Shown here piece by piece: positions 4,050-40,632 of a stretch of DNA of 45,000 nt. The notes under the pieces were generated by a model that made no database searches, was not told where the DNA came from, and worked only from the letters and a program-made list of their open reading frames with translations. Positions within the stretch are counted from its first letter, which is position 1. Each line of letters opens with the position of its first letter. A program made the translations under genes and the position numbers. The DNA comes from Anaeromyces robustus (taxonomy: Eukaryota > Neocallimastigomycota > Neocallimastigomycetes > Neocallimastigales > Neocallimastigaceae), in the NCBI GenBank assembly GCA_002104895.1, contig MCFG01000262.1, positions 1 to 45,000 of the forward strand, given 5' to 3'.

Positions 4050-4794
4050 TAATAATAAAAATAAAAAGAAAATAATAAAAAAGAAAAGCAACCAAAATTT
4101 AAAATTATAAATTAAAATTAAATAATTATAATAATCTATAATAAATATATAATAAATAATAATAAAAATGTTATAATTCCCTTTTTCAATAAAAAAAAAA
4201 ATAGTATAATACTAAAATTCAATAAACCCCTTAAAATTAAGTAATATTTTTACAATTATTTTCTAACAAAAAAAAAAAAAGGTTTAAATCAAAACAAACA
4301 AATAAAGAAATAAATAAGTAATAAAGTAAATCCCCTAAAAAGAAAAATACAATAATAATTGAAATTAATTTGAATTTTGAAAGTAAAATAAAAATTATAC
4401 ATTATTTAATATTTTATATAATAGAGCGTAAAACATTTATAAAAAATAATTTTTTTTTAATTTGAACATTAATTCAATCCTATAATTAATTTATATTATA
4501 AAATTCTTTTTTTTATTTATATTTTTTTGATTTATTATTTATTGTTAAATAATATTTACAGAAACAGTAATAATAATAATAATAAATTGGTTAATATATT
4601 ATATACAAAGAATTTATATTAATTCATAGGAAACAAGTAATTGTAACTATTATTAAAGAAAGACAAAATAAAATATAAACAACAACAATAACAACAAAAA
4701 AAAAAAAAAAAAAAAAAAAAAAGAAAAAAGGAAGAAAATATAAAGAAAGATTATTTAAATATTCAAATACATTTTAAATAAAATATTATAAACA
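2054..4794. other. Intergenic, AT-rich, no gene seen
   Basis: This 2.7 kb between importin-11 and the membrane-protein gene is nearly pure A/T. It has T runs (2145-2168, 2523-2546), TTA triplet runs (near 3037-3060) and A runs (4019-4042, 4696-4722). No reading frame with coding character was found on either strand. The only less simple part is an E-box-like imperfect inverted repeat at 2931-2963. The last ~100 bases, rich in AAC and A, are probably the 5' UTR of the next gene. Confidence 0.7.
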
Positions 4795-6105
4795 ATGTTG
4801 GATGACAAAAGTAGTGAAAATCTCGTCGTAAGAGACGATGAATCGGAATTCGAAGATTTTGATGGTGATGATACTATGGAAAATTTATTAGATCTTTTTC
4901 TCTTTAATAGAAAAGATGCAGCATTTTTAGATTGGGTTTCATTAATATCATTTTTAATGTTTTTAAGTATTAATGTTGGTTGTGCTTCATTCAATTTATA
5001 CAAAGCTCTTACAGAACCAACAGATGACAGTGATGATAATGATATGCTTAATGATTTTTTATATAGTAAAGGTAAAGCAATTACTTTATTTAATTCTACT
5101 GGTAGTTTTTTCAATAGTACTTCTACAGATGTAAAATTTAAGATTGATAGAGCAACAAAAATTTTATATTTCACAGAATTTTCAGTAATTTGTTTATTTG
5201 CTTTAATTGCTATATATAATTATATAAAATTGGCATTTAATCCTTTATCAAAATCAGCTTTATCTAATGCAGCAAACTTTACTCGTTTAGTTAGAGAATT
5301 TTCATGCTTTACTCTAGTTCCTCTTTTCAATATTAGAACCATTACAGGTATTTATAATGACATAGCAAAAACATTTAATGAAGAACAAAAAAAGTATGCT
5401 GATCGTTCAGAACTTTGGGATGGTATATGGGGTGTTAGTACAAAAGATGTTCAAAAGACAAATACAGCGATGGAACTAGCCATTGATAGTGACAATCCTG
5501 AAGATATAAATGAAGAACCAGAACAAGATGAAAATAATTTAGATGGTGGTGAAAGTAAATTCAAAAAGTTTAAACATTCAAAGTTTTTCTTACGTATTGT
5601 ATCAATCTTAATCTACATTGGTTTTATTTTATCATTAATGTCTGTAGTAATTTTAGCATTTTTCGCATTTGTTGCACTTTATATTAAAACTCGTCACGTT
5701 GGTAATTTCATTAGAAGTCAAGGAAATTTTATATATAAATGGTTTAATTTTATTACATTTATTATGAATATTGCTTCTTTATCACAATCAAGTCCAGCTA
5801 TTAAGCTTATTATTTATCAACTTAAAGTTTTAACAAAGAAGGCACATGTTAATGAATATCGTCGTAGAAGACAAAATAGAATAAAAGAAAATGCTAAAAA
5901 ATTTGATGCAGATAAAGATGAACCAGGAATTCAACCACCAAAGATTATTATTCATAAGAAAAAAATATCAAGAACATTAGATGATTCTGACGTTGATGTC
6001 ATAAAAGCTCAAGGTACTGAAGAAATAGATGCAGATAAATTGTCACCACCATCATTAAAACGTCAAAACTCAAAATTATCATCAAAATCAACAAATTCTG
6101 TATAA
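4795..6105 (+). CDS. Multi-pass membrane protein of unknown family, 436 aa, single exon
   Basis: I do not recognise this protein. The frame is open for 436 codons with no intron, and the start at AACAATG is the first in-frame ATG after an A-rich leader. The N-terminus (residues 1-40) is strongly acidic. Hydrophobic segments lie at about 47-68, 123-146 and 264-297 (long enough for one bent or two helices), with a weaker one at 316-330. The loop between the first two helices holds two N-glycosylation sequons (N100-S-T, N107-S-T), which suggests that this loop faces the lumen or the outside. A charged acidic linker (229-252) and a basic tail from about 350 (EYRRRRQNRIK, then Ser/Lys-rich) would then be cytosolic. 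A PEX11-like identity was considered but no motif supports it. The codon pattern (A/T third positions) matches neighbouring real genes. A 139-codon antisense frame over the 5' half is a shadow. Confidence 0.82.
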   Translation: MLDDKSSENLVVRDDESEFEDFDGDDTMENLLDLFLFNRKDAAFLDWVSLISFLMFLSINVGCASFNLYKALTEPTDDSDDNDMLNDFLYSKGKAITLFNSTGSFFNSTSTDVKFKIDRATKILYFTEFSVICLFALIAIYNYIKLAFNPLSKSALSNAANFTRLVREFSCFTLVPLFNIRTITGIYNDIAKTFNEEQKKYADRSELWDGIWGVSTKDVQKTNTAMELAIDSDNPEDINEEPEQDENNLDGGESKFKKFKHSKFFLRIVSILIYIGFILSLMSVVILAFFAFVALYIKTRHVGNFIRSQGNFIYKWFNFITFIMNIASLSQSSPAIKLIIYQLKVLTKKAHVNEYRRRRQNRIKENAKKFDADKDEPGIQPPKIIIHKKKISRTLDDSDVDVIKAQGTEEIDADKLSPPSLKRQNSKLSSKSTNSV

Positions 6106-17147: not shown

Positions 17148-18640
<1,493 letters not shown>

Positions 18641-22508: not shown

Positions 22509-23693
22509 TTTGAAATATATATATAAAAACCGTAATAATTAATATATGTCTTCTAATAAAAAAAATGTCAATTATTATGGTTTTTACTGATAAAAAGAAA
22601 TAAAAATATTTATTAATTAAATTATTAAAAGAAAATTTTAAAAAAAAAAAAAAAAAAAAATAAAATAAGCTAAAATTCGATTGGATAAAAATTTTAAACC
22701 ATATATTATAATAAATTTTAATAGTAAAAATTTTAATCTTTATTTTTAATATTAAATATTGAAAATAATTTTAACATTGAATATATATTTTTTTAAAATG
22801 TATTAAAAAGTAATTAATAACGTATCAATTTTACATTATGTACATTTTTAACCAATCATTGTTTAACATAATACAAAATGTTAATATAATATGTTAGGTT
22901 AATTTTTTTTATTTCTGGTAAAAATGAAAGCCTTTGACCAGAAATAAAGATGAATAAATTAACCTGAGTAAATTACAATATTTATAAGTTATAAAAAATA
23001 TATAATTATTTTAAATGATTATAATTAATTGCATATGTAATATATAAATATTTATTTTATACTAAGAAAAAAATTTACAAAGACATAAAGTTTACTAATT
23101 ATATTTTATAATGATATATGTATTTAATCTTCAAGTTTTTCTAAAAGTAATATGAATTATTATTTCTATATTATTATCCAATATATTTATAAATCATTTT
23201 AATTTTTTGTTAAAAATTAAATATATTATAATTAATAATACATATATATTAATTGATTTAATTATATTAAAATATATTATATTAATATATTTATTTAATT
23301 TTTTTTTTATTTGGTGTATAATAAATTCATTTTATGTAAAATTTTTTTTTAAGAAATTTAAAATAAAAAGAAGATAAAAAAAAAAGGAAATCTGAAATTG
23401 CTAATTAATATTTTTTAATGGCAATTTTTTAATTTATTTTATATTATATTTTTTTAAATTAACATATTTTTGCTTTTTTTTCACTTTTTATTTTAATTTT
23501 TAATATTTTTTTTTCTTCTTTTTTATTTATAATATATATAAAATTAATAAATTTTAATTCATCATTTTTTTTTCAATCATTGATGTTACCTAAATTTTTA
23601 TAGTAATTATTTATTCAATCAACATTTACAATTAAAATAAATTAATTCAAAATTTAGCATAAAAATAAAATATAAAAGTATTATATATTAAAG
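22509..23693. promoter_or_regulatory. Divergent intergenic region between TSR1 and PRP8
   Basis: 1.2 kb separate the two start codons, so this must hold both promoters, possibly independently. It is AT-rich without a clear TATA choice. The only ordered structure is the hairpin at 22896-22965. The 120 bases before the PRP8 ATG are mixed A/T with TTTC runs, probably the 5' UTR. Confidence 0.5.
22896..22965. repeat. 70-base inverted repeat / hairpin
   Basis: The outer arms AGGTTAATTT (22896-22905) and AAATTAACCT (22956-22965) are perfect complements. So are the inner arms TTATTTCTGGT (22909-22919) and ACCAGAAATAA (22937-22947). The asymmetric internal loop is 3 versus 8 bases and the apical loop is 17 bases with a GC-richer core. 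It could be a structured RNA, a tiny MITE remnant or a protein-binding palindrome; nothing in the sequence decides between these. Confidence 0.8.
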
Positions 23694-26600
23694 ATGTCTT
23701 CAATACCTCCTCCAATGGGAGGTTATCCAAGAAATGGATATATACCACCTTCAAATCCACCAATGAATCAACGTCCATATTATCCACAACAAGCTCAACC
23801 TCAACCACAAAGTCTTGATTTACCTGAAGATAAATTAAAAGAAAAAAGTATGAAATGGCAGCAAATGAATTCAAAACGTTATGGTGAGAAAAGAAAATTT
23901 GGATTTGTTGAACAACAAAAGGAAAATATGCCACAAGAACATTTAAGAAAAATTATTAAAGATCATGGTGATATGTCAAGCAAAAAATATAGACATGATA
24001 AGAGAATTTATTTAGGTGCATTAAAATATATACCACATGCTGTTTTAAAATTATTAGAAAATATGCCAATGCCATGGGAACAGGTAAATCATTATTTTAA
24101 ATAATCTTTTTTAACATTGATTTTAATATTTTGTAATTTAGAAAATTCTAAAATAAATTTATATATAATTTTTTATTATAAAAAATTTTAAAATTACAAA
24201 TTCATTTATATTTTTTAAAGGTTCGAGAAGTACCAGTTTTATATCATATTACAGGTGCAATTACATTTGTTAATGAAATCCCATGGGTAGTTGAACCAAT
24301 TTATTTAGCCCAATGGGGTACTATGTGGATTATGATGCGTCGTGAAAAGCGTGATCGTAGACACTTTAAAAGAATGAGATTCCCACCATTCGGTATGCTT
24401 TTTTTTTATAAACATATTTTTTATATAATATATAATTACATTTAAAATATAAGTTTTATATAAATTATAATTTTAATAAAAATTTAAATTATATATATAT
24501 ATTTTATTTTATTATAAAATTATTAAATTAATAATCAATATTGAATTAAAATTTTTAATTTAATTCAAAAACTTAAATAAATATAACTAAAAACAAAATT
24601 GATTAAATGTAAATAGATGATGAAGAACCACCACTTGATTATGGTGATAATATTTTAGATGTAGAACCATTAGAGGCAATTCAAATGGAATTAGATGAAG
24701 AAGAAGATGCAGCTGTATATGATTGGTTTTATGATCATAAACCATTAGTCGATACTAAATTTATTTGTGGATCATCATATAAAAAATGGAATCTTAACTT
24801 ACCTATTATGTCAACTTTATACAGACTTGCTCATCAATTATTATCAGATTTCACAGATAAAAATTACTTCTATTTATTTGATCTTAATTCATTTATAACA
24901 GCAAAATCATTAAATCTTGCAATTCCTGGAGGTCCAAAATTTGAACCATTATATCGTGATATGGATCCTGTTGATGAAGATTGGAATGAATTTAATGATA
25001 TTAATAAAATTATTATTCGTCAACAAATTAGAACGGAATACAAAATTGCATTCCCATTTTTATATAATTCGTTACCAAGATCTGTCAAAGTTTCATGGTA
25101 TCATTATCCAATATGTGTATATATAAGAGCTGAAGATCCAGACCTTCCAGCATTCTATTTTGATCCAATTATTAATCCAATTTCATCTAGAACCATCGAA
25201 ACTCATGTAAAAATATCTCATGAAGATGAAGTGTTTGGTGATGATGATGAAGATGATGATTTTGAATTACCAGAAAATACTAAACCATTCTTAAGTGATA
25301 CACCATTATACACAGATAATACTGCAAGTGGTATTGAATTATATTGGGCTCCAAGACCATTTGATAAGCGTAGTGGTCGTTCAAGACGTGCTATTGATGT
25401 ACCATTAGTTAAGAATTGGTATTTAGAACATTGTCCATCTGGATACCCAGTAAAAATTAGAGTTTCTTATCAAAAATTATTAAAGTATTATATATTAAAT
25501 TCATTAAAGCATCGTCCACCAAAAGCATTAAACAAAAAATATTTATTTAGACAATTAGCAGCTACAAAATTTTTCCAAAAGACAGAACTTGATTGGGTAG
25601 AAGTTGGTCTTCAAGTATGTCGTCAAGGTTATAATATGCTTAATTTGTTAATTCACCGTAAAAACTTAAATTATCTTCACCTTGATTATAACTTTAATTT
25701 AAAACCAGTAAAAACTTTAACAACTAAGGAAAGAAAGAAGTCTCGTTTTGGTAATGCATTCCACCTTTGTCGTGAAATTCTTCGTTTAACAAAATTAGTC
25801 GTCGATTCACATGTTCAATATCGTTTAGGTAATGTTGATGCTTTCCAATTAGCTGATGGTTTACAATATATTTTCTCACATGTTGGTCAATTAACTGGTA
25901 TGTATCGTTATAAGTATAGATTAATGCGTCAAATTCGTATGTGTAAAGATCTTAAACATTTAATGTAAGTAATTTATTAATGAATATTATTTAATTTGTC
26001 ATAATATATATAATATAGTTTTTTTTTTTTTTTATTTTTAAATTATTACTAATAATGTCAATAATAATAATATTATTTATATCTATTTTATAATATTATA
26101 ATTAATATATTTTTTTTTTTATTGTATTATTTGATTTTTTTTCTATTATTTTTTCTTTTAAATAAAGATATTACCGTTTCAATAGTGGACCTATTGGTAA
26201 AGGTCCAGGTTGTGGTTTCTGGGCACCAGGATGGAGAGTATGGTTATTCTTTATGCGTGGTATTGTTCCATTATTAGAAAGATGGTTAGGTAATTTATTA
26301 GCTCGTCACTTCGAAGGTCGTCAATCAAAAGGAATTGCTAAAACTGTAACTAAACAACGTGTTGAATCTCATTACGATCTAGAACTTCGTGCTGCTGTTA
26401 TGCATGATATTTTAGATATGATGCCAGAAGGTATTAAAGCTAATAAATCAAGAACTATTTTACAACATTTAAGTGAAGCATGGCGTTGTTGGAAAGCCAA
26501 TATTCCATGGAAGGTACCAGGTTTACCAACACCAATTGAAAATATGATTTTACGTTATGTTAAATCAAAAGCTGATTGGTGGACAAGTGTAGCTCACTAT

Positions 26601-29600
26601 AATAGAGAACGTATTCGTAGAGGTGCTACTGTAGATAAAACAGTTTGTAAGAAGAATTTAGGTAGATTAACTCGTCTTTGGTTAAAAGCAGAACAAGAAA
26701 GACAACATAACTATTTAAAAGATGGTCCATACATTACTGCTGAAGAAGCTGTTGCTATTTATACAAGTACAGTACACTGGTTAGAAAGTAGAAAATTCTC
26801 ACCAATTCCATTCCCACCACTTTCATATAAACATGATACTAAATTATTAACTTTAGCTTTAGAAAGATTAAAAGAAGCATATAGTGTTAAAGGTAGATTA
26901 AATCAAAGTCAAAGAGAAGAACTTGGTTTGATTGAACAGGCCTATGATAATCCACATGATTGTCTTTCACGTATAAAGAGATTATTATTAACTCAACGTG
27001 CATTTAAAGAAGTCGGTATAGAATTTATGGATTTATACAGTCATTTAATTCCAGTTTATAGTATTGAACCATTAGAAAAGATTACTGATGCTTACTTAGA
27101 TCAATATTTATGGTATGAAGCTGATAAACGTCATTTATTCCCAGCTTGGATTAAGCCAAGTGATTCTGAACCACCACCACTTCTTGTTTATAAATGGTGT
27201 CAAGGTATTAATAATTTAGTTGATGTATGGGAAACAGGTGATGGTCAATGCAACGTTATGTTAGAAACTCAACTTAGTAGAGTATATGAAAAGATTGATT
27301 TAACATTATTGAACAGATTGTTAAGATTAATTTTAGATCATAATATTGCTGATTATATGACTGCTAAAAATAATATTGTATTAAATTATAAGGACATGAA
27401 TCATGTAAATGCTTATGGTCTTATAAGAGGTTTACAATTTGCTAGTTTCATTTTCCAATATTATGGTCTTGTATTGGATTTACTTATTCTTGGTCTTAAG
27501 AGAGCTAGTGAAATGGCTGGTCCACCTCAACTTCCAAATGATTTCTTACAATATAAGGATATTAAGACAGAAACTCGTCATCCAATCAGATTGTATTCAA
27601 GATATATTGATAGAGTTCATATTATGTTTAGATTTACAGAAGAAGAAGCTCGTGATTTAATTCAAAGATACTTAACTGAACATCCAGATCCAAATAATGA
27701 AAATATTGTTGGTTATCCATCTAAAAAATGTTGGCCACGTGATTGTCGTATGCGTTTAATGAAGCATGATGTTAATTTAGGAAGAGCTGTCTTCTGGGAT
27801 ATTAAGAACCGTCTTCCAAGAAGTCTTACTACTATTGAATGGGATGAAAGTTTCGTAAGTGTATACAGTAAGGATAATCCAAATCTTTTATTCTCAATGT
27901 GTGGTTTTGAAGTTAGAATTTTACCAAAGATTCGTAGTATTCATGAAGAATTTACATTAAGTGAAGGTGTATGGAATTTAATTAATGAACAAACCAAAGA
28001 AAGAACAGCACAAGCCTTCTTAAGAGTTGATGATGCTAGTCTTCAAAGATTCCATAACAGAATTCGTCAAATTCTTATGGCTTCTGGTAGTACAACATTC
28101 ACTAAGATTGTTAATAAATGGAATACTGCTTTAATTGGTTTAATGACTTATTATCGTGAAGCTGCTGTTCATACCCGTGAACTTTTAGATTTATTAGTTA
28201 AATGTGAAAATAAAATTCAAACTCGTATTAAGATTGGTTTGAATTCAAAAATGCCAAGTAGATTCCCACCAGTCGTATTCTATACTCCAAAAGAATTGGG
28301 TGGTTTAGGTATGTTAAGTATGGGTCACGTTTTAATTCCTCAAAGTGATTTAAGATGGAGTAAACAAACTGATACTGGTATTACTCATTTCAGAAGTGGT
28401 ATGTCTCATGAAGAAGATCAAGTTATTCCAAATCTTTATAGATATATTCAGCCATGGGAATCTGAATTTATTGATTCTCAACGTGTTTGGGCAGAATATG
28501 CTTTGAAGAGACAAGAAGCTAATGCTCAAAACAGAAGATTAACATTGGAAGATCTTGAAGATAGTTGGGATAGAGGTATTCCTAGAATTAACACTCTTTT
28601 CCAAAAGGATAGACATACACTTGCTTATGATAAAGGTTGGCGTGTACGTACTGACTTTAAACAATATCAAGTATTAAAGAATAATCCATTCTGGTGGACA
28701 CACACAAGACACGATGGTAAATTATGGAATTTAAATAATTATCGTACTGATATGATTCAAGCATTAGGTGGTGTTGAAGGTATTTTAGAACATACATTAT
28801 TTAAAGGTACTTATTTCCCAACTTGGGAAGGTTTGTTCTGGGAAAAAGCCTCTGGTTTCGAAGAAAGTATGAAATATAAGAAGTTAACTAATGCTCAACG
28901 TTCTGGTCTTAATCAAATTCCAAATCGTCGTTTCACTCTTTGGTGGTCACCAACTATTAACAGAGCTAACGTTTATGTCGGTTTCAGAGTACAATTAGAT
29001 TTAACAGGTATTTACATGAATGGTAAGATTCCAACCTTAAAGATTTCATTAATTCAAATTTTCAGAGCTCACTTGTGGCAAAAGATTCACGAAAGTATTG
29101 TTATGGATTTGTGTCAAGTATTTGATCAAGAATTAGAAGCACTTGAAATTGAAACTGTACAAAAGGAAACTATTCACCCACGTAAGTCATATAAGATGAA
29201 TTCTTCATGTGCTGATATTTTATTATTTGCTGCTTACAAATGGAATGTTAGTAAACCAAGTTTATTAAATGATACTAAAGATTCCTTTGATGGTGCTACC
29301 ACTCAAAAATTCTGGGTTGATGTACAATTACGTTGGGGTGATTTCGATTCTCACGATATTGAACGTTATGTTCGTGCTAAGTTCCTTGAATACACTACAG
29401 ATAATATGAGTATTTATCCATCTCCAACTGGTACAATGATTGGTATTGATTTAGCTTATAATTTACATAGTGCTTATGGTAATTGGTTTGCTGGTATGAA
29501 ACCATTGATTCAACAAGCTATGGCTAAAATTATTAAAGCTAATCCTGCTTTATATGTATTAAGAGAACGTGTAAGAAAGGGTCTTCAACTTTATTCTTCA

Positions 29601-31373
29601 GAACCAACTGAACCATATCTTTCATCTAGTAACTATCTTGAACTTTTCAGTAATCAAATTATTTGGTTTGTTGATGATACTAATGTATATCGTGTTACTA
29701 TTCACAAGACATTTGAAGGTAATTTAACTACAAAACCAATTAATGGTGCCATCTTTATTTTCAACCCAAGAACGGGTCAATTATTCCTTAAGATTATTCA
29801 TACTAGTGTTTGGGCAGGTCAAAAACGTTTAGGTCAACTTGCTAAATGGAAGACTGCTGAAGAAGTTGCTGCTCTTATCCGTTCTTTACCAGTTGAAGAA
29901 CAACCAAAACAAATTATTGTTACACGTAAAGGTATGTTAGATCCACTCGAAGTTCACTTGCTTGATTTCCCTAACATTGTTATTAAAGGTAGTGAATTAC
30001 AACTTCCATTCCAAGCTTGTTTGAAGATTGAAAAGTTTGGTGATTTAATTTTGAAGGCTATTGAACCACAAATGGTTCTCTTTAACCTTTATGATGATTG
30101 GTTAAAGACCGTAAGTAGTCACACTGCCTTCTCTCGTTTAATTATGATTCTTCGTTCTCTTCATATCAATAATGAAAAGACTAAGATTATTTTAAGACCA
30201 GATAAAAACACCGTAACTGAACCACATCATATTTGGCCAACACTTACAGATGATGAATGGATAACACTTGAAAATAAACTTAAAGATCTTATTCTTGGTG
30301 ATTATGGTAAGAAGAATAATGTTAATGTTGCAAGTTTAACTGCTCCTGAAATTCGTGATATTATATTAGGTATGGAAATTTCAGCTCCAAGTTTACAAAG
30401 ACAACAAATTGTTGAAATTGATAAACAAAATAAGGAACAAAGTCAACTTACAGCTGTTACCACTAAAACTCAAAATATTCATGGTGATGAAATGATTGTT
30501 ACAACTACTTCTAATTATGAATCTCAAACATTCTCTTCCAAAACTGAATGGAGAGTTCGTGCCATTTCTAGTACAAACTTACATCTTAGAACAAATCATA
30601 TATATGTTGACTCTGATGATATAAAGGAAACAGGTTATACCTATATTCTTCCAAAGAATATATTAAAGAAGTTTATTTGTATTAGTGATTTAAGAACACA
30701 AATTGCAGGATATCTTTATGGTGTTAGTCCACCTGATAATGCTCAAGTTAAAGAAATTAGATGTATTGTATTAGTTCCACAATGGGGTACACATCAACAA
30801 GTTCATTTGCCATCACAAATACCCGAACATGAATATTTAAGAAACTTAGAACCATTAGGTTGGATTCATACACAACCTGCTTTACTTCCACAACTTAGTC
30901 CAATTGATGTTACCATTCATTCCAAAATTATGGCCGAAAATAAAACTTGGAATGGTGAAAAGACTGTAATTATTACTTGTAGTTTTACACCAGGTTCTTG
31001 TTCATTAACAGCATATAAGGTTACACCAGCCGGTTATGAATGGGGACGTAATAATAAAGATAATACAGCAAATCCACCAGGTTACTTACCATCTCATTAT
31101 GAAAAAGTACAAATGTTATTAAGTGATCGTTTCCTTGGTTTCTTTATGGTACCAGAACCAGATGGTGTATGGAATTATCACTTTATGGGAGCTAAGCATA
31201 GAACTGAAATGAAATATACTTTACAACTTGATACTCCAAAAAGTTTCTTTGATGAATGTCATCGTCCAAGTCATTTCTTAAACTTCTCTGGATTAGAAAG
31301 TGATGGATTTACTAGTGTAGGATCAGGTGTAGAAATGAATCAAGAAGTCGATATTGAAGATGAATTCGCTTAA
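23694..31373 (+). CDS. PRPF8: Pre-mRNA splicing factor PRP8, 2371 aa
   Basis: PRP8 is the U5 snRNP scaffold that forms the spliceosome's catalytic cavity, and it is shared by the major (U2) and minor (U12) spliceosomes. Exons: 23694-24083, 24221-24392, 24617-25964, 26168-31373; GT-AG introns. The Pro-rich start ([10 protein letters not shown]) is typical. PRO8NT lies at about 50-190 ([39 protein letters not shown]). PROCN follows ([40 protein letters not shown]), then the reverse-transcriptase-like and U5/U6-binding parts. The RNase H-like domain has the [13 protein letters not shown] core (D1806, D1807). The C-terminal MPN/Jab1 domain (about 2125-2260) has [18 protein letters not shown], where H-T-Q replaces the JAMM H-x-H, so it is inactive as a protease, as in all PRP8. 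The total is close to the human length (2335). No intein is present. The tail after HRPSHFLNF is about ten residues longer than in human. Confidence 0.98.
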
Positions 31374-33259: not shown

Positions 33260-36200
33260 ATGATATCAACACCGATAAATAATGGAAAAAGAGTAGCAAA
33301 ACAAGGATGGGTATATAAAAAAGGAGGAAATCATTTTTTATCAAAATGGAGATTAAAATGGTTCGTATTATTTGATAAACCAAATGTAGAATTACATATT
33401 TATGATAAAAGAGATCATGCTGTACAATCATCCCATCCAAAACATTTAGTAAATCCCGAAAATACAATTATTGAAGTACCAAATGAAACCATCAATTTAA
33501 GTAAGGGATTATTAAGAAAATCCGAAAAAATTTCACCATTTACTATCATAACAAAAAACAAAAAAGTAAAAAAAAAAAAAAAAAAATTATAATATTACAT
33601 ATTCATAACTATTATATGGAATTTATCATATAATAAATAAAAATATATTAATAAAAAAATATATATATATATAAAGTATTATTTCGCAGGTCAAAATAAA
33701 ACAGATCGTGAAGAATGGATTAAAATGCTTCAACAAATATCAAGTGCACAAACAATAGTACCCAAAAATTTAAAACCAAAAGAAGATGACGAATTATATT
33801 CAGTTTATTCGGAAGATACAGCTTCACTTTCCGGATCAGCTTATACACAAAGTAATTATTCGGGAAATGAAGTTGAAAATGCATATACTTCAGTTAGCGT
33901 TTTGGTAAATAATAATAATAATAATAATAATATACATATATATATATATATATTGTTCGAAATTTAAAGAAAAAATTAAGCAAAAATAATAATTCAAAAT
34001 CTTCATTAATATATTTGATTCTTAATATTATATTATTCAATTAATGAATTTAATAAATATATATTAAATAAATAAAAAAAAATAAATGAAATACATATAA
34101 TTTATTTAACAAAAAAACTCTGATAAATATGAAAAAAAATATTTATTATTTTAGTCAATTGGTGATGCATCAATTTTAACATCAGATGAATTAAATCACT
34201 TAAATAGACCATCAGCACAATTAATTACAGCGTAAATATTTTTTATTATATATATAAAATATTTAATATATATTACTATTAACGAAATAATAATTGAAAA
34301 TAATAATAATAATAATATACATAACCTATAAAATTTGTAACAAAATTGAATAATAAATGTATATAGTTCACAAAGAATGGAAGATTTTAGAAGGAAGCAA
34401 GGTTAATATAATTCAAAATTATGAATAAAGAATTTCACAATTTAATATATATATAAATTTATTATTAATAATTATTTTAAAAATATTGATATTTTATGAT
34501 ATATATAATTTATTATTAAAAATAAAATCCAAATTTCCAAATTTATATATATAAAGAATCTACTAATTCTCAAAAATCAAAAGATTTCTTGAATCCTGGA
34601 GGTAGATTAATTATGCTAAATTATCTTTCTTTATAAATAATAATGAATAATGTATCAAAAAATTAATAATATATATTAATATCTTTCATTATATATAATA
34701 TATAAATATATATATATAAAAATAGAAAAATGGAATGAAAAGTATCAACAAGTAATTTCATTAAATGATGATGATAAAGATAATACATATTTACAGAAAA
34801 GTAAATTTCTAAAACTTATTAAAATTAATATTTGTTTAAATAATAATTATTTATAAATATTAATTTTTATTAATTTCTTTTTATTTAAAAAAAAAACATA
34901 ATAAATCAATATATAATATAAATATTATAAAAAATAAAAATAAAAATTAAAATAAAAATAAAAATAAAAATAAAAAGATATTAGAATTTGTGAATTAATA
35001 GGAGCATTCCAAGAAGCATCACAATTCTATGGAAGAAAGATTATAGATGAATTACATTCTTCATCTAATACTACGGGTCAAACTGATATATCATCACCAA
35101 GAAAATACCTTTACGGAGAAATATTTTTCCAATTTGCAACGGATTATGAAAGTAAAAAATTAATGCTTAACTTTTTAATAAAAAAATTTATATAATGATA
35201 TATATAAAAAAAATATTTGTCATAATTAAATATTATAATAATAGTACATTATTTATTATGAAAAAAATAAACATTGATCTTTAATGTATATTTATATATA
35301 TAATATGTTAATATTTTTACAAATTATTTTTAACTATTAGATGAAGATACCAATAATATTAATATAGAAGTAGCAAAGACAAATCAAGAATTAAAAGCTA
35401 TTAATGCAATTAATAAATTGAAATCAGATGTATGTACAGCATTATTTTGTCTTGTCGATTATAAAGGTTTCCGTTTAGTTGCATGTGCTTTAATGCCATT
35501 AGACGAACAAGTAAATATAGCGTTTTTTGAATTTATATATATTATTATTATTATAAAAAATACTATAAAAAATCCTTAATAAATATAATATATATTGTAT
35601 TGATATATTATATATTTATTTATTTTATATATCAAAGAATTCTCTTTTATTTGATTTAACATCAGATGAATGTAAAATGGATAATAATGCAATTTATAAA
35701 ATTAGTGAAATTGGAAATATGTTAAACTTGAAAGATCATATCCTTTACATATTTTAAAATATATTAAAGAGATTAATTATATATATTTTTTTTTAAAAAT
35801 AAAAAAAAAGGAATTTAAATCAAACTTATATGTTATATTCTTTAACTTTTTTTTCTTTTTCTTTCAAACATCAAGTAATTTTAGAAGACAGTCAAAGAAT
35901 TACAATAAATCTTTCAGGAACTGTTGAAGTAAATTCATTTTTTTTATAATAATAAATTATAATAAAAATACAAAAAAATATAATAATAATAATAATAATA
36001 ATAATATATTATTTAATATAATAATCTTTTATATTATTATATTATTATTAATTAGGTTTATTTCAGTCAACCTACTAGTAAATATTATTTCTTAAATTTA
36101 TGTGATGTATTCCCAGTTGATTGTGATAATTCAGAAGAACCAGAAAATATTAATGTTCATAATCGTTTAAGACCTGAATTTATTAAAACCTATAAAACTC

Positions 36201-37169
36201 AACTTTGTTCAGATGTATTTTCAGACTTCCAAATGAATAAAAAGGAATTAGAAGGATTTGAAACAGATTTAATAGAAGCAGGAAATTATTTAAAAGATAT
36301 TATTATACCACAATTTGTAAAAGAATTAGATGACTTACAATTAATGCCATTAGATAGTGAAGAATTTACAGAAGCTTTACATTCTCGTGGAATTAATGTT
36401 AGATATTTAAGTAAATATTATTATATTTAAAATTTCAAATATTTTTAATTATTCTTTTTATTATTATTATGATTATATCTATACCTATATTTATATATAT
36501 TGTTGATTTTATTTTAAAATATATATTTCCTTTTTATTTATATTATATTTATTTATTTTATAAAATATTTTTTTTTTACTATTTTTTTCTTCTATAATAA
36601 TAATTAATATTAAAATAATATATATAAATAGGTATAATTGCAAAACTTACTAAATTACCATATATTAGAGATTTCTGTCATGCAGAAATGGTAGCTAGAG
36701 CATGTAAAATTATTTTTAATGACAAATTAAGAAAAATTGTATATCATTTTAAAAGTATTGAAGCTTCAAAAATTGATGAAGAAATACAAGCATTTATTAT
36801 TAATTTATTCCAAACAGTATTAGGAAATAGTCCAAAAGCTAAAGCTGTATGTATTCCTTTTTACTATTAATAATTTTTAAAAAAAAATAAATATTATTAT
36901 TTATTAACTAATGTATATTTAAAATATAAATTTTATTTCATTTTATTTTATTTTATATGACTAGTTTTGGAAAGAAAATATTGAAGATATGATATACAAA
37001 AAATTTAATACAAGATTAGATTATTCAGTATTCCAAAATATTCATAAACCAATGCTTTTCATTAGCATGCAATATCATGTACATGATAATAATTTATATT
37101 AATATATATATTTAATATATTTTAAAAAAAATTATTTATTTATTTCTAATCGATTATTTAAAATTCTTT

Positions 37170-37211
<42 letters not shown>

Positions 37212-38907
37212 ATTTAAAAATTTTTATTATTTTTTTATTTATTCGTACTTGTAAAAAAAAATAGTGTGGAGTTATTTTTGAAGATACTACAGATTATGAT
37301 TTTAAACTTCAAAATCCAATAAATAAAGAAAATTTCATTGGTTTTGTATCAAAAACAAAAACAGTAAATGCTAATTATGAAATAGCTGAAAGACTTTCAA
37401 CTGAAGAAAAGGAAGTTTATGATTTAGGTATTCATTTCTCTTCTTTAGGTAGTAAATTAAAATTAACAAAAAATAATAAAACAGCTATGAGATTCTTAGG
37501 ATTAGCTAAATATTATAATAGTATTGGAAAATATGAAGAAGCACAAATTTATGGTAATTCAGCATTAAACTTAGTAAATAAAAATCATTCATATTGTGCA
37601 TTAATTTTAGAATGTTTAATGGAAACCTATTTTATGCATTCTGCATTTGTTGATATTGAAAATGGTGAAAATTCTGAAAAAGAATCTGAAAATAATGAAC
37701 AACAAGAACAAGATCAAGAACAAGATCAAGATCAACAACAAGATCAACAACAACAACAAGATCAAAACAATGAACCAGCTAATAGTGAAAAAAGTAATAT
37801 AAGAAAAAATAAAGTAGATGAAAATGTATTAGAATTATATAATCAAGCACTTGAAGTAATTCGATTCCATTTAAGTGAAGATCATTTATATTATATAAAT
37901 CTTAATAGTAAATTATCAGATTTATATATTAAATGTGAAGAATATGAAAAAGGATATGAAGTTCATAAGGAATGTTTAGAAACTTCCTATAAACTTCTTG
38001 GAAAGAATCATCAATTAACTGGAAAACATGTATCAAAGGTAATATATAATATTAATAATAATAATAATAATAATAATAAAATTAATATTAATAAATATAA
38101 AATATAAAATATAAAATAAATATAATATACTAAATATATGATATAAAATTTTAATAAAAATATAAATAAAAATAAAATAAAAAATAAATGAATGAATAAA
38201 TAAAAAAAAAAAAAAAAAAATAAAAAAAAAAAAAGATTGGAAATTATCTATTAACATTAAAGAGAATTGATGAAGCTATTCAAAAATATTTAGAAGCTAT
38301 TCAAATTTTTGAAGGATTAGGAATAGATAAAAATATAGAAATTATAGCCATTACCCATCATTCCCTTGCAGATGCTTATTATCAAAAAGATGATATAGAT
38401 AATGCAGTTATTCATAGTACTGAAGCTCGTAAATTAAAAGAAAAATGTTTTGGACAATATCATCCACAAACTGTAAATACCTATCGACAATTAGCCAAAC
38501 TTGTATTAGCCAATTATACCAATTATCAAGGAGTTATTACCCCACAAATTAAAAAAAGTATACAAATTGCTATATCATGTTATGAAAGAGTATTTAAATA
38601 TTTAAAATCAAGAAAAGATTTTGGAAAACAAAATGTAGCTCTATTGACTTTAATAAGAACGTTAATAGGACTTAAATTTAAACTTTTTAATACAAGACAA
38701 AGAGAAATTTTAAGAAGTGTACGTCAAAGTGATAAAGTTTATTCACAAGAATCTGTTAAAGATGTTATATTAAAATTAGTACATTTAACACCAGTAATTG
38801 TTATTGATGAAATTTTACAAAAATTAGAAGATAGAGATGAAAATAGTATTAATGAATTAGGTATTATTGTACAAATTGTTGAATCTGATGATATTACATT
38901 TGCTTAA
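33260..38907 (+). CDS. PH domain - CLU domain - TPR protein, 1132 aa, 15 exons
   Basis: Exons: 33260-33565, 33677-33904, 34155-34231, 34367-34401, 34557-34601, 34726-34800, 34978-35151, 35341-35510, 35638-35737, 35870-35928, 36056-36410, 36632-36846, 36965-37078, 37265-38038, 38236-38907. A PH domain opens the protein (about 12-125: QGWVYKKGG, WRLKWFVLF, DREEWIKML with the invariant Trp). A CLU-type region follows (about 310-650): FCLVDYKGFRLVACALMP, LNLKDHQV, YYFLNLCDVFPVD, RPEFIKTY, RGINVRYLSIIAKL and LPYIRDFCHAEMVARA. Kinesin-light-chain-like TPRs fill about 670-1040, interrupted by a Gln/Asp/Glu-rich insert (about 793-823). CLU proteins (CluA, CLUH) bind mRNAs for mitochondrial proteins, but here the usual CLU N-terminal domain is replaced by PH, which suggests membrane or phosphoinositide targeting; function is inferred. 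Intron 9 (35738-35869) is AT-AC, U12-type; the other 13 are GT-AG. Confidence 0.88.
35738..35869 (+). other. U12-type AT-AC intron (intron 9 of the PH-CLU-TPR gene)
   Basis: This 132-base intron starts ATATCCTTT, a full match to the U12-dependent AT-AC 5' splice-site consensus. It ends in AC at 35868-35869. A branch-site-like TTCTTTAAC (consensus TTCCTTAAC) lies at 35838-35846, about 24 bases before the 3' end. The phase-1 join C|AT restores His and gives LNLKDHQVILED, matching the CLU-family L-K-x-x-H-x-V segment. The upstream exon frame hits a stop soon after, and no GT donor in this exon gives a join that keeps this motif. Confidence 0.88.
37172..37207. repeat. T36 homopolymer in intron 13 of the PH-CLU-TPR gene
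   Basis: An uninterrupted run of T lies within the intron 37079-37264, about 57 bases before the acceptor at 37263-37264. Confidence 0.95.

Positions 38908-40373: not shown

Positions 40374-40632
<259 letters not shown>

Follow-up and report, generated by a model that had tools for sequence, protein, structure and literature searches.

Minor introns and minor snRNAs have been described in a number of Neocallimastigomycetes, including Piromyces finnis and Neocallimastix californiae, and minor introns are biased away from phase 0 (PMC10639083). Other early fungi have also been reported to contain minor introns and minor snRNAs (PMC2846911). When such introns are spliced, U6atac takes over from U11 at the 5′ site (PMC3584512). 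The intron considered here appears to come from the same fungal class as those of P. finnis and N. californiae, is of the same kind and is accompanied by the same kinds of snRNA, although the available text of the study on those species describes neither an intron of a CLU-family gene nor a changed U6atac (PMC10639083). Minor introns of Neocallimastigomycetes are already published but appear to be little described.

The intron is the ninth of a gene that encodes PH, CLU, eIF3_p135 and TPR domains (Table 1). It lies in what we call the window, meaning the whole 45,000-nucleotide stretch of DNA that was analysed. Within residues 1-790 of the predicted protein Pfam places PH (13-124), CLU (233-438) and eIF3_p135, and the TPR repeats follow further along. 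CLU, eIF3_p135 and TPR domains are common to this gene and the CLU/CLUH (clustered mitochondria) family, whereas the window gene also has an N-terminal PH domain (PF00169, 48.3 bits; 33260-33904). A long ATT-repeat tract lies 3′ of the gene at 40377-40632. Elsewhere in the window, a plus-strand open frame of 437 aa (4792-6105) shows several hydrophobic segments on visual inspection, and Pfam gave no match to it at E≤0.001.

Table 1. Positions of the features discussed, in window coordinates except where a locus handle (L) is given
Feature	Position	Strand	Basis or remarks
U12-type AT-AC intron (assigned), 132 bases, phase 1, intron 9 of PH-CLU gene	35738..35869	+	sequence, frame, CLU score, gene model
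5′ splice site ATATCCTTT, exact U12-type consensus RTATCCTTT	35738..35746	+	direct reading
Branch-site-like TTCTTTAAC, one mismatch to TTCCTTAAC	35838..35846	+	direct reading
Terminal AC, 3′ intron end	35868..35869	+	direct reading
PH-CLU-eIF3_p135-TPR gene, predicted 15 exons, 1124 aa, 13 GT-AG introns and one AT-AC	33260..38907	+	gene model, Pfam domains
Exon 9 of PH-CLU gene, directly upstream of AT-AC intron, inside CLU domain	35638..35737	+	gene model
Exon 10 of PH-CLU gene, directly downstream of AT-AC intron, inside CLU domain	35870..35928	+	gene model
PRP8 gene	24613..31373	+	open frames 24613-25968 and 26166-31373 tested; limits run from stop to stop and do not mark exon bounds exactly
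U12 gene	L001:1501-1668		57.4 bits, Rfam cut-off 53
U6atac gene	L002:1501-1648	-	61.5 bits, Rfam RF00619 cut-off 33
U4atac-like gene	L003		40.4 bits, below Rfam cut-off 53; E 4.8e-4 in genome

Read without splicing, the frame across 35738-35869 gives DHILYIF followed by a stop. Joining 35737 to 35870 gives GAT C/AT CAA GTA, that is D H Q V, in which the junction codon is His-396 of LNLKDHQV within the CLU domain. Direct reading and the gene model both agree with this join, which the original prediction had proposed; the internal motif it had placed about 24 bases before the 3′ end is also there, with a measured distance of 23 bases from the C of the branch-site AAC to the intron end. The segment thus has a U12-type 5′ site, a branch site near the 3′ end and frame-consistent AT-AC termini. 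With described AT-AC U12-type introns it shares the ATATCCTTT 5′ site, a TTCYTTAAC-like branch site, the AC end, a phase other than 0 and a lone position among GT-AG introns. Judged by these signals and by the snRNA genes described below, 35738-35869 is almost certainly a U12-type AT-AC intron that would be removed by a minor spliceosome retained in a gut fungus.

Similar introns, mostly AT-AC, were found across the genome (70.17 Mb in 769 contigs). The scan for the motif pair that had been suggested as a check, in the form RTATCCTTT and then TYCTTRAC after a gap of 52-112 bases, returned 43 matches versus 9 for the reversed control, so that about nine of the 43 may be chance occurrences; about 10 extra entries in the motif-pair listings overlap these 43. 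An earlier pattern with a gap of 21-81 showed no excess (12 versus 12 in the control). With its branch site TCTTTAAC, which departs from TYCTTRAC, the window intron is not one of the 43. The matches start with ATATCC (40) or GTATCC (3), and 33 of the 43 have T at +10.

Homology across the junction supported 10 of the 16 junction peptides tested, which were drawn from matches of both patterns: CDK-like, EXO84, TRM9-like, RhoGAP, Exportin-5, FH3, TTL, eIF2A, RasGEF_N and TSNAXIP1_N. The PDB alignments across the CDK-like junction are gap-free as shown; the TTL match is not gapless (62 residues over 54 profile positions), and for eIF2A (L020) the Pfam test was made with an AG end, the AC end being our own judgement. 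Four peptides (L010, L017, L026 and L044) gave no match or a weak one irrelevant to the junction, and two (L005 and L006) consisted of upstream pieces only. With the window intron included, the 11 homology-checked introns comprise ten AT-AC introns (eIF2A by the chosen acceptor) and one GT-AG intron, of 101-140 bases, with 10-33 bases from branch site to 3′ end. Their phases 0, 1 and 2 number 1, 4 and 6, and the single phase 0 intron is in line with the published bias. Ten of the 11 were found through their canonical 5′ site and give no measure of the frequency of other kinds. Relative to AT-AC U12-type introns described elsewhere, the set in this host is thus strongly AT-AC, both among the homology-checked introns and among the pattern matches, with the branch-site spacing given above and very AT-rich surroundings. 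In animal minor introns the branch site lies 10-20 bases from the 3′ end; in six of the homology-checked introns (L008, L009, L019, L024, L040 and L048) the interval is 24-33 bases. As far as its sequence goes, the window segment is a real intron and adds a member to the known U12-type group. The prediction of a U12-type AT-AC intron is in this respect upheld by motif, frame, domain score and the ten similar introns in other genes.

The genome also agrees with the earlier claim that this DNA belongs to an anaerobic gut fungus. All 150 CBM_10 candidates that were scored, from 683, exceeded the cut-off, and CBM_10 is the dockerin of anaerobic gut fungi. These at least 150 domains, together with a G+C content of about 17% in the loci fetched around motif-pair matches, point to Neocallimastigomycota.

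A genome search for minor-spliceosome components had likewise been proposed as a check, and it recovered part of the snRNA set: U12 and U6atac genes score above their Rfam cut-offs, a U4atac-like gene scores below its own, and neither U11 nor the zf-U11-48K finger turned up in the genome. Together these genes would support a working minor spliceosome, as predicted. PRP8 does lie in the same window, as had been noted, and frames 23676-24104 and 24182-24445 are by their look a putative N-terminal part of it, but because both spliceosomes use PRP8 its presence bears little on the question. In the searches for U12, U6atac and U4atac, 42-48 candidates were scored among 1013-2901 each, and further copies are possible. 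All three genes form islands richer in G+C (0.31-0.36) than their flanks (0.05-0.15). By eye, a CCAAT sequence stands about 85-135 bases upstream of each (inverted in L003), possibly a shared promoter element.

The U4atac-like RNA carries an Sm-like AATTTTTGG, and its stem II with the U6atac of the same genome is predicted to form 14 consecutive pairs (-27.2 kcal/mol), versus -20.1 kcal/mol with the Rfam consensus U6atac. The two consensus RNAs give -30.1 kcal/mol, and the genome's own U6atac with consensus U4atac gives -25.6, so that from the U6atac side the own U4atac is only slightly preferred. In stem I the found partner is not favoured (-7.6 for the own pair versus -12.8 for own U6atac with consensus U4atac). 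The Sm-like element and the stem II pairing nevertheless speak for the U4atac-like gene being a U4atac. The U12 RNA has UAAGGAUAA in the region predicted to pair with the branch site, where the consensus has UAAGGAAAA, and this change lowers the predicted pairing with UUUUCCUUAAC (-6.5 versus -9.0 for consensus U12). Co-variation of U12 with the branch site, by which A is predicted at one branch-site position, found no significant support: A stands there in 19 of 43 matches and in 4 of 14 background sites (p = 0.24).

For U11, the genome gave no Rfam match at E≤1e-3 or at E≤10 (39 scored among 6831 candidates). A genome-wide pattern search yielded 72 matches versus 55 in the control and no convincing candidate among the 67 loci inspected, which leave out four places as repeats and one that overlaps another. 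One locus (L059) was rejected because it had no Rfam match at E≤10 and lies inside a 232-aa open frame; the remaining loci were assessed from their sequence, flanks and G+C content. The zf-U11-48K finger (PF05253) had no match in the genome, with 0 candidates.

The U6atac gene is the component that departs most from expectation. By the title of a 1998 paper, activation of U12-type 5′ sites in vivo reportedly requires that they base pair with U6atac. The U6atac found here has in common with RF00619 a full-length match, the 5′ GUGUUGUAUGA and the U4atac-pairing stem, and it is followed by a T-run, as expected of polymerase III. It differs from Rfam consensus at six of its first 30 positions, in a stretch printed as conserved: 12-14 are changed from AAG to GCC, 21-22 from AG to CA and 26 from A to G, with one base inserted after 30. 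In mammals, the partners of 5′-site positions +4 to +8 are U6atac positions 12-16. Where a canonical U6atac has AAAGGA, complementary to the 5′ site, this one has AGCCGA, and GGC replaces the AGC triad. Its predicted duplex with AUAUCCUUU is in a shifted register and has -1.4 kcal/mol, versus -5.7 for the Rfam consensus, and with AUAUCCUUUU it has -2.5 versus -6.8 kcal/mol. From these sequences and energies, complementarity to the 5′ site is plainly lost, and the single U6atac found is, by predicted pairing, unable to form the usual AAGGA:UCCUU helix with it. Positions 8-32 can fold into an 8-pair hairpin (-6.3 kcal/mol) that the consensus segment does not form and that 2 of 200 shuffles equal, the bounds having been picked after the fold was seen. 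Folding of segment 1-48 is not unusual (z = -0.23), and the whole RNA favours other pairings; the hairpin is thus only a suggestion of the folding model. Among the open-access papers listed, no title or opening of an abstract concerns an altered U6atac of gut fungi, and the AGCCGA form is apparently undescribed so far. The U6atac pattern had 0 matches in the viral_contigs and genome_contigs collections.

One account of these changes is that the gene is a diverged copy and that the assembly lacks a canonical U6atac which the fungus does possess. The concentration of changes in a conserved stretch fits such a copy, as do the persistence of ATATCCTTT sites throughout the genome and an assembly split among 769 contigs, for which a completeness figure is not given. 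On the other side, a single U6atac was obtained at E≤1e-3 (46 scored of 1013 candidates), and the canonical U6atac core, searched as a 21-mer, had 0 genome matches at up to 3 mismatches; a copy with AAAGGA and the same other changes would have surfaced, because it has 3 differences from the 21-mer. The fit of U4atac stem II to this U6atac over the Rfam consensus and the T-run 3′ of the gene also argue against this account. We regard a diverged copy as a serious possibility that falls somewhat short of probable.

It is possible, though less likely than not, that the sole U6atac has lost its 5′-site pairing element, which would now lie in a hairpin that also hides the GGC equivalent to AGC, while dozens of canonical ATATCCTTT introns persist; minor splicing would then proceed without a U6atac:5′-site helix, the 5′ site being fixed by U11 and proteins alone. 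It is very unlikely that the 5′-site class has instead shifted to a UCGG type that matches the altered U6atac. Good pairing is predicted with AUAUCGGCU (-9.7 kcal/mol), but RTATCGG with ATYCTTAAC 52-112 bases on, the one gap range and branch site searched, occurs 0 times in the genome and once in the reversed control, and all 11 homology-checked introns have CCTTT, although this motif served to find ten of the 11.

At the exon pair itself, use of a U2-type GT-AG intron, with the AT-AC signals there by coincidence, is highly improbable. The remaining 13 introns in the gene model are all GT-AG, and an enumeration of GT or GC donors at 35641-35829 and AG acceptors up to 35925, with a minimum intron length of about 45 bases and the neighbouring exons fixed, gave nine frame-keeping pairs, every one GT-AG. 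The statement in the original prediction that the GT donors lose the conserved stretch or the frame was thus nearly right: nine keep the frame, but all have a lower CLU-domain score, 79.3-93.3 bits versus 110.1 for the AT-AC junction, the best of the ten, which is a drop of 17-31 bits. The nearest competitor (35721/35810, 93.3 bits) retains HQV and has 14 extra residues. Coincidence is likewise hard to reconcile with the motifs. While ATATCCTTT is unremarkable by itself (RTATCCTTT with up to 1 mismatch has 62 matches in the window, 2 of them exact, versus a shuffle mean of 58.9), the combination of RTATCCTTT, 30-200 bases, TTYYTTRAC and then AC or AG 6-34 bases further occurs once on both strands of the window and at least once in 9 of 300 dinucleotide shuffles. 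That single occurrence sits where the reading frame needs joining, and a similar motif pair is in excess genome-wide, as noted above. A second U12-like intron in the window (17396-17500; ATATCTTTA..TTTTTAAC..AG) is a weak match and was taken as chance.

That the AT-AC intron is spliced by the major (U2-type) spliceosome is as improbable, since its 5′ site agrees with the U12-type consensus at all nine bases and is accompanied by a U12-like branch site in a genome that has U12, U6atac and U4atac-like genes, even though AT-AC termini are not confined to U12-type introns (PMC3584512).

Taken as a U12-type intron, 35738-35869 would be processed in the following way. U11 and its proteins would recognise ATATCCTTT, the branch site would pair with U12, U6atac would be delivered by U4atac, and exons 9 and 10 of the CLU-family gene would be joined by two-step splicing. 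Identity of the 5′ site may be enforced mainly by U11 and proteins, with U6atac perhaps keeping only a short 5′-site contact, A16-U4 and G15-C5. The register used for that contact is the mammalian one.

The intron provides a specific example of minor splicing in a fungal lineage that branched early, and through the altered U6atac nature itself offers a test of what textbooks describe, the pairing of U6atac at the 5′ site. If a lineage retained that site while its pairing partner changed, the needs of U11 could be told apart from those of U6atac. If the altered U6atac is a working gene, this is the part that specialists would find surprising.
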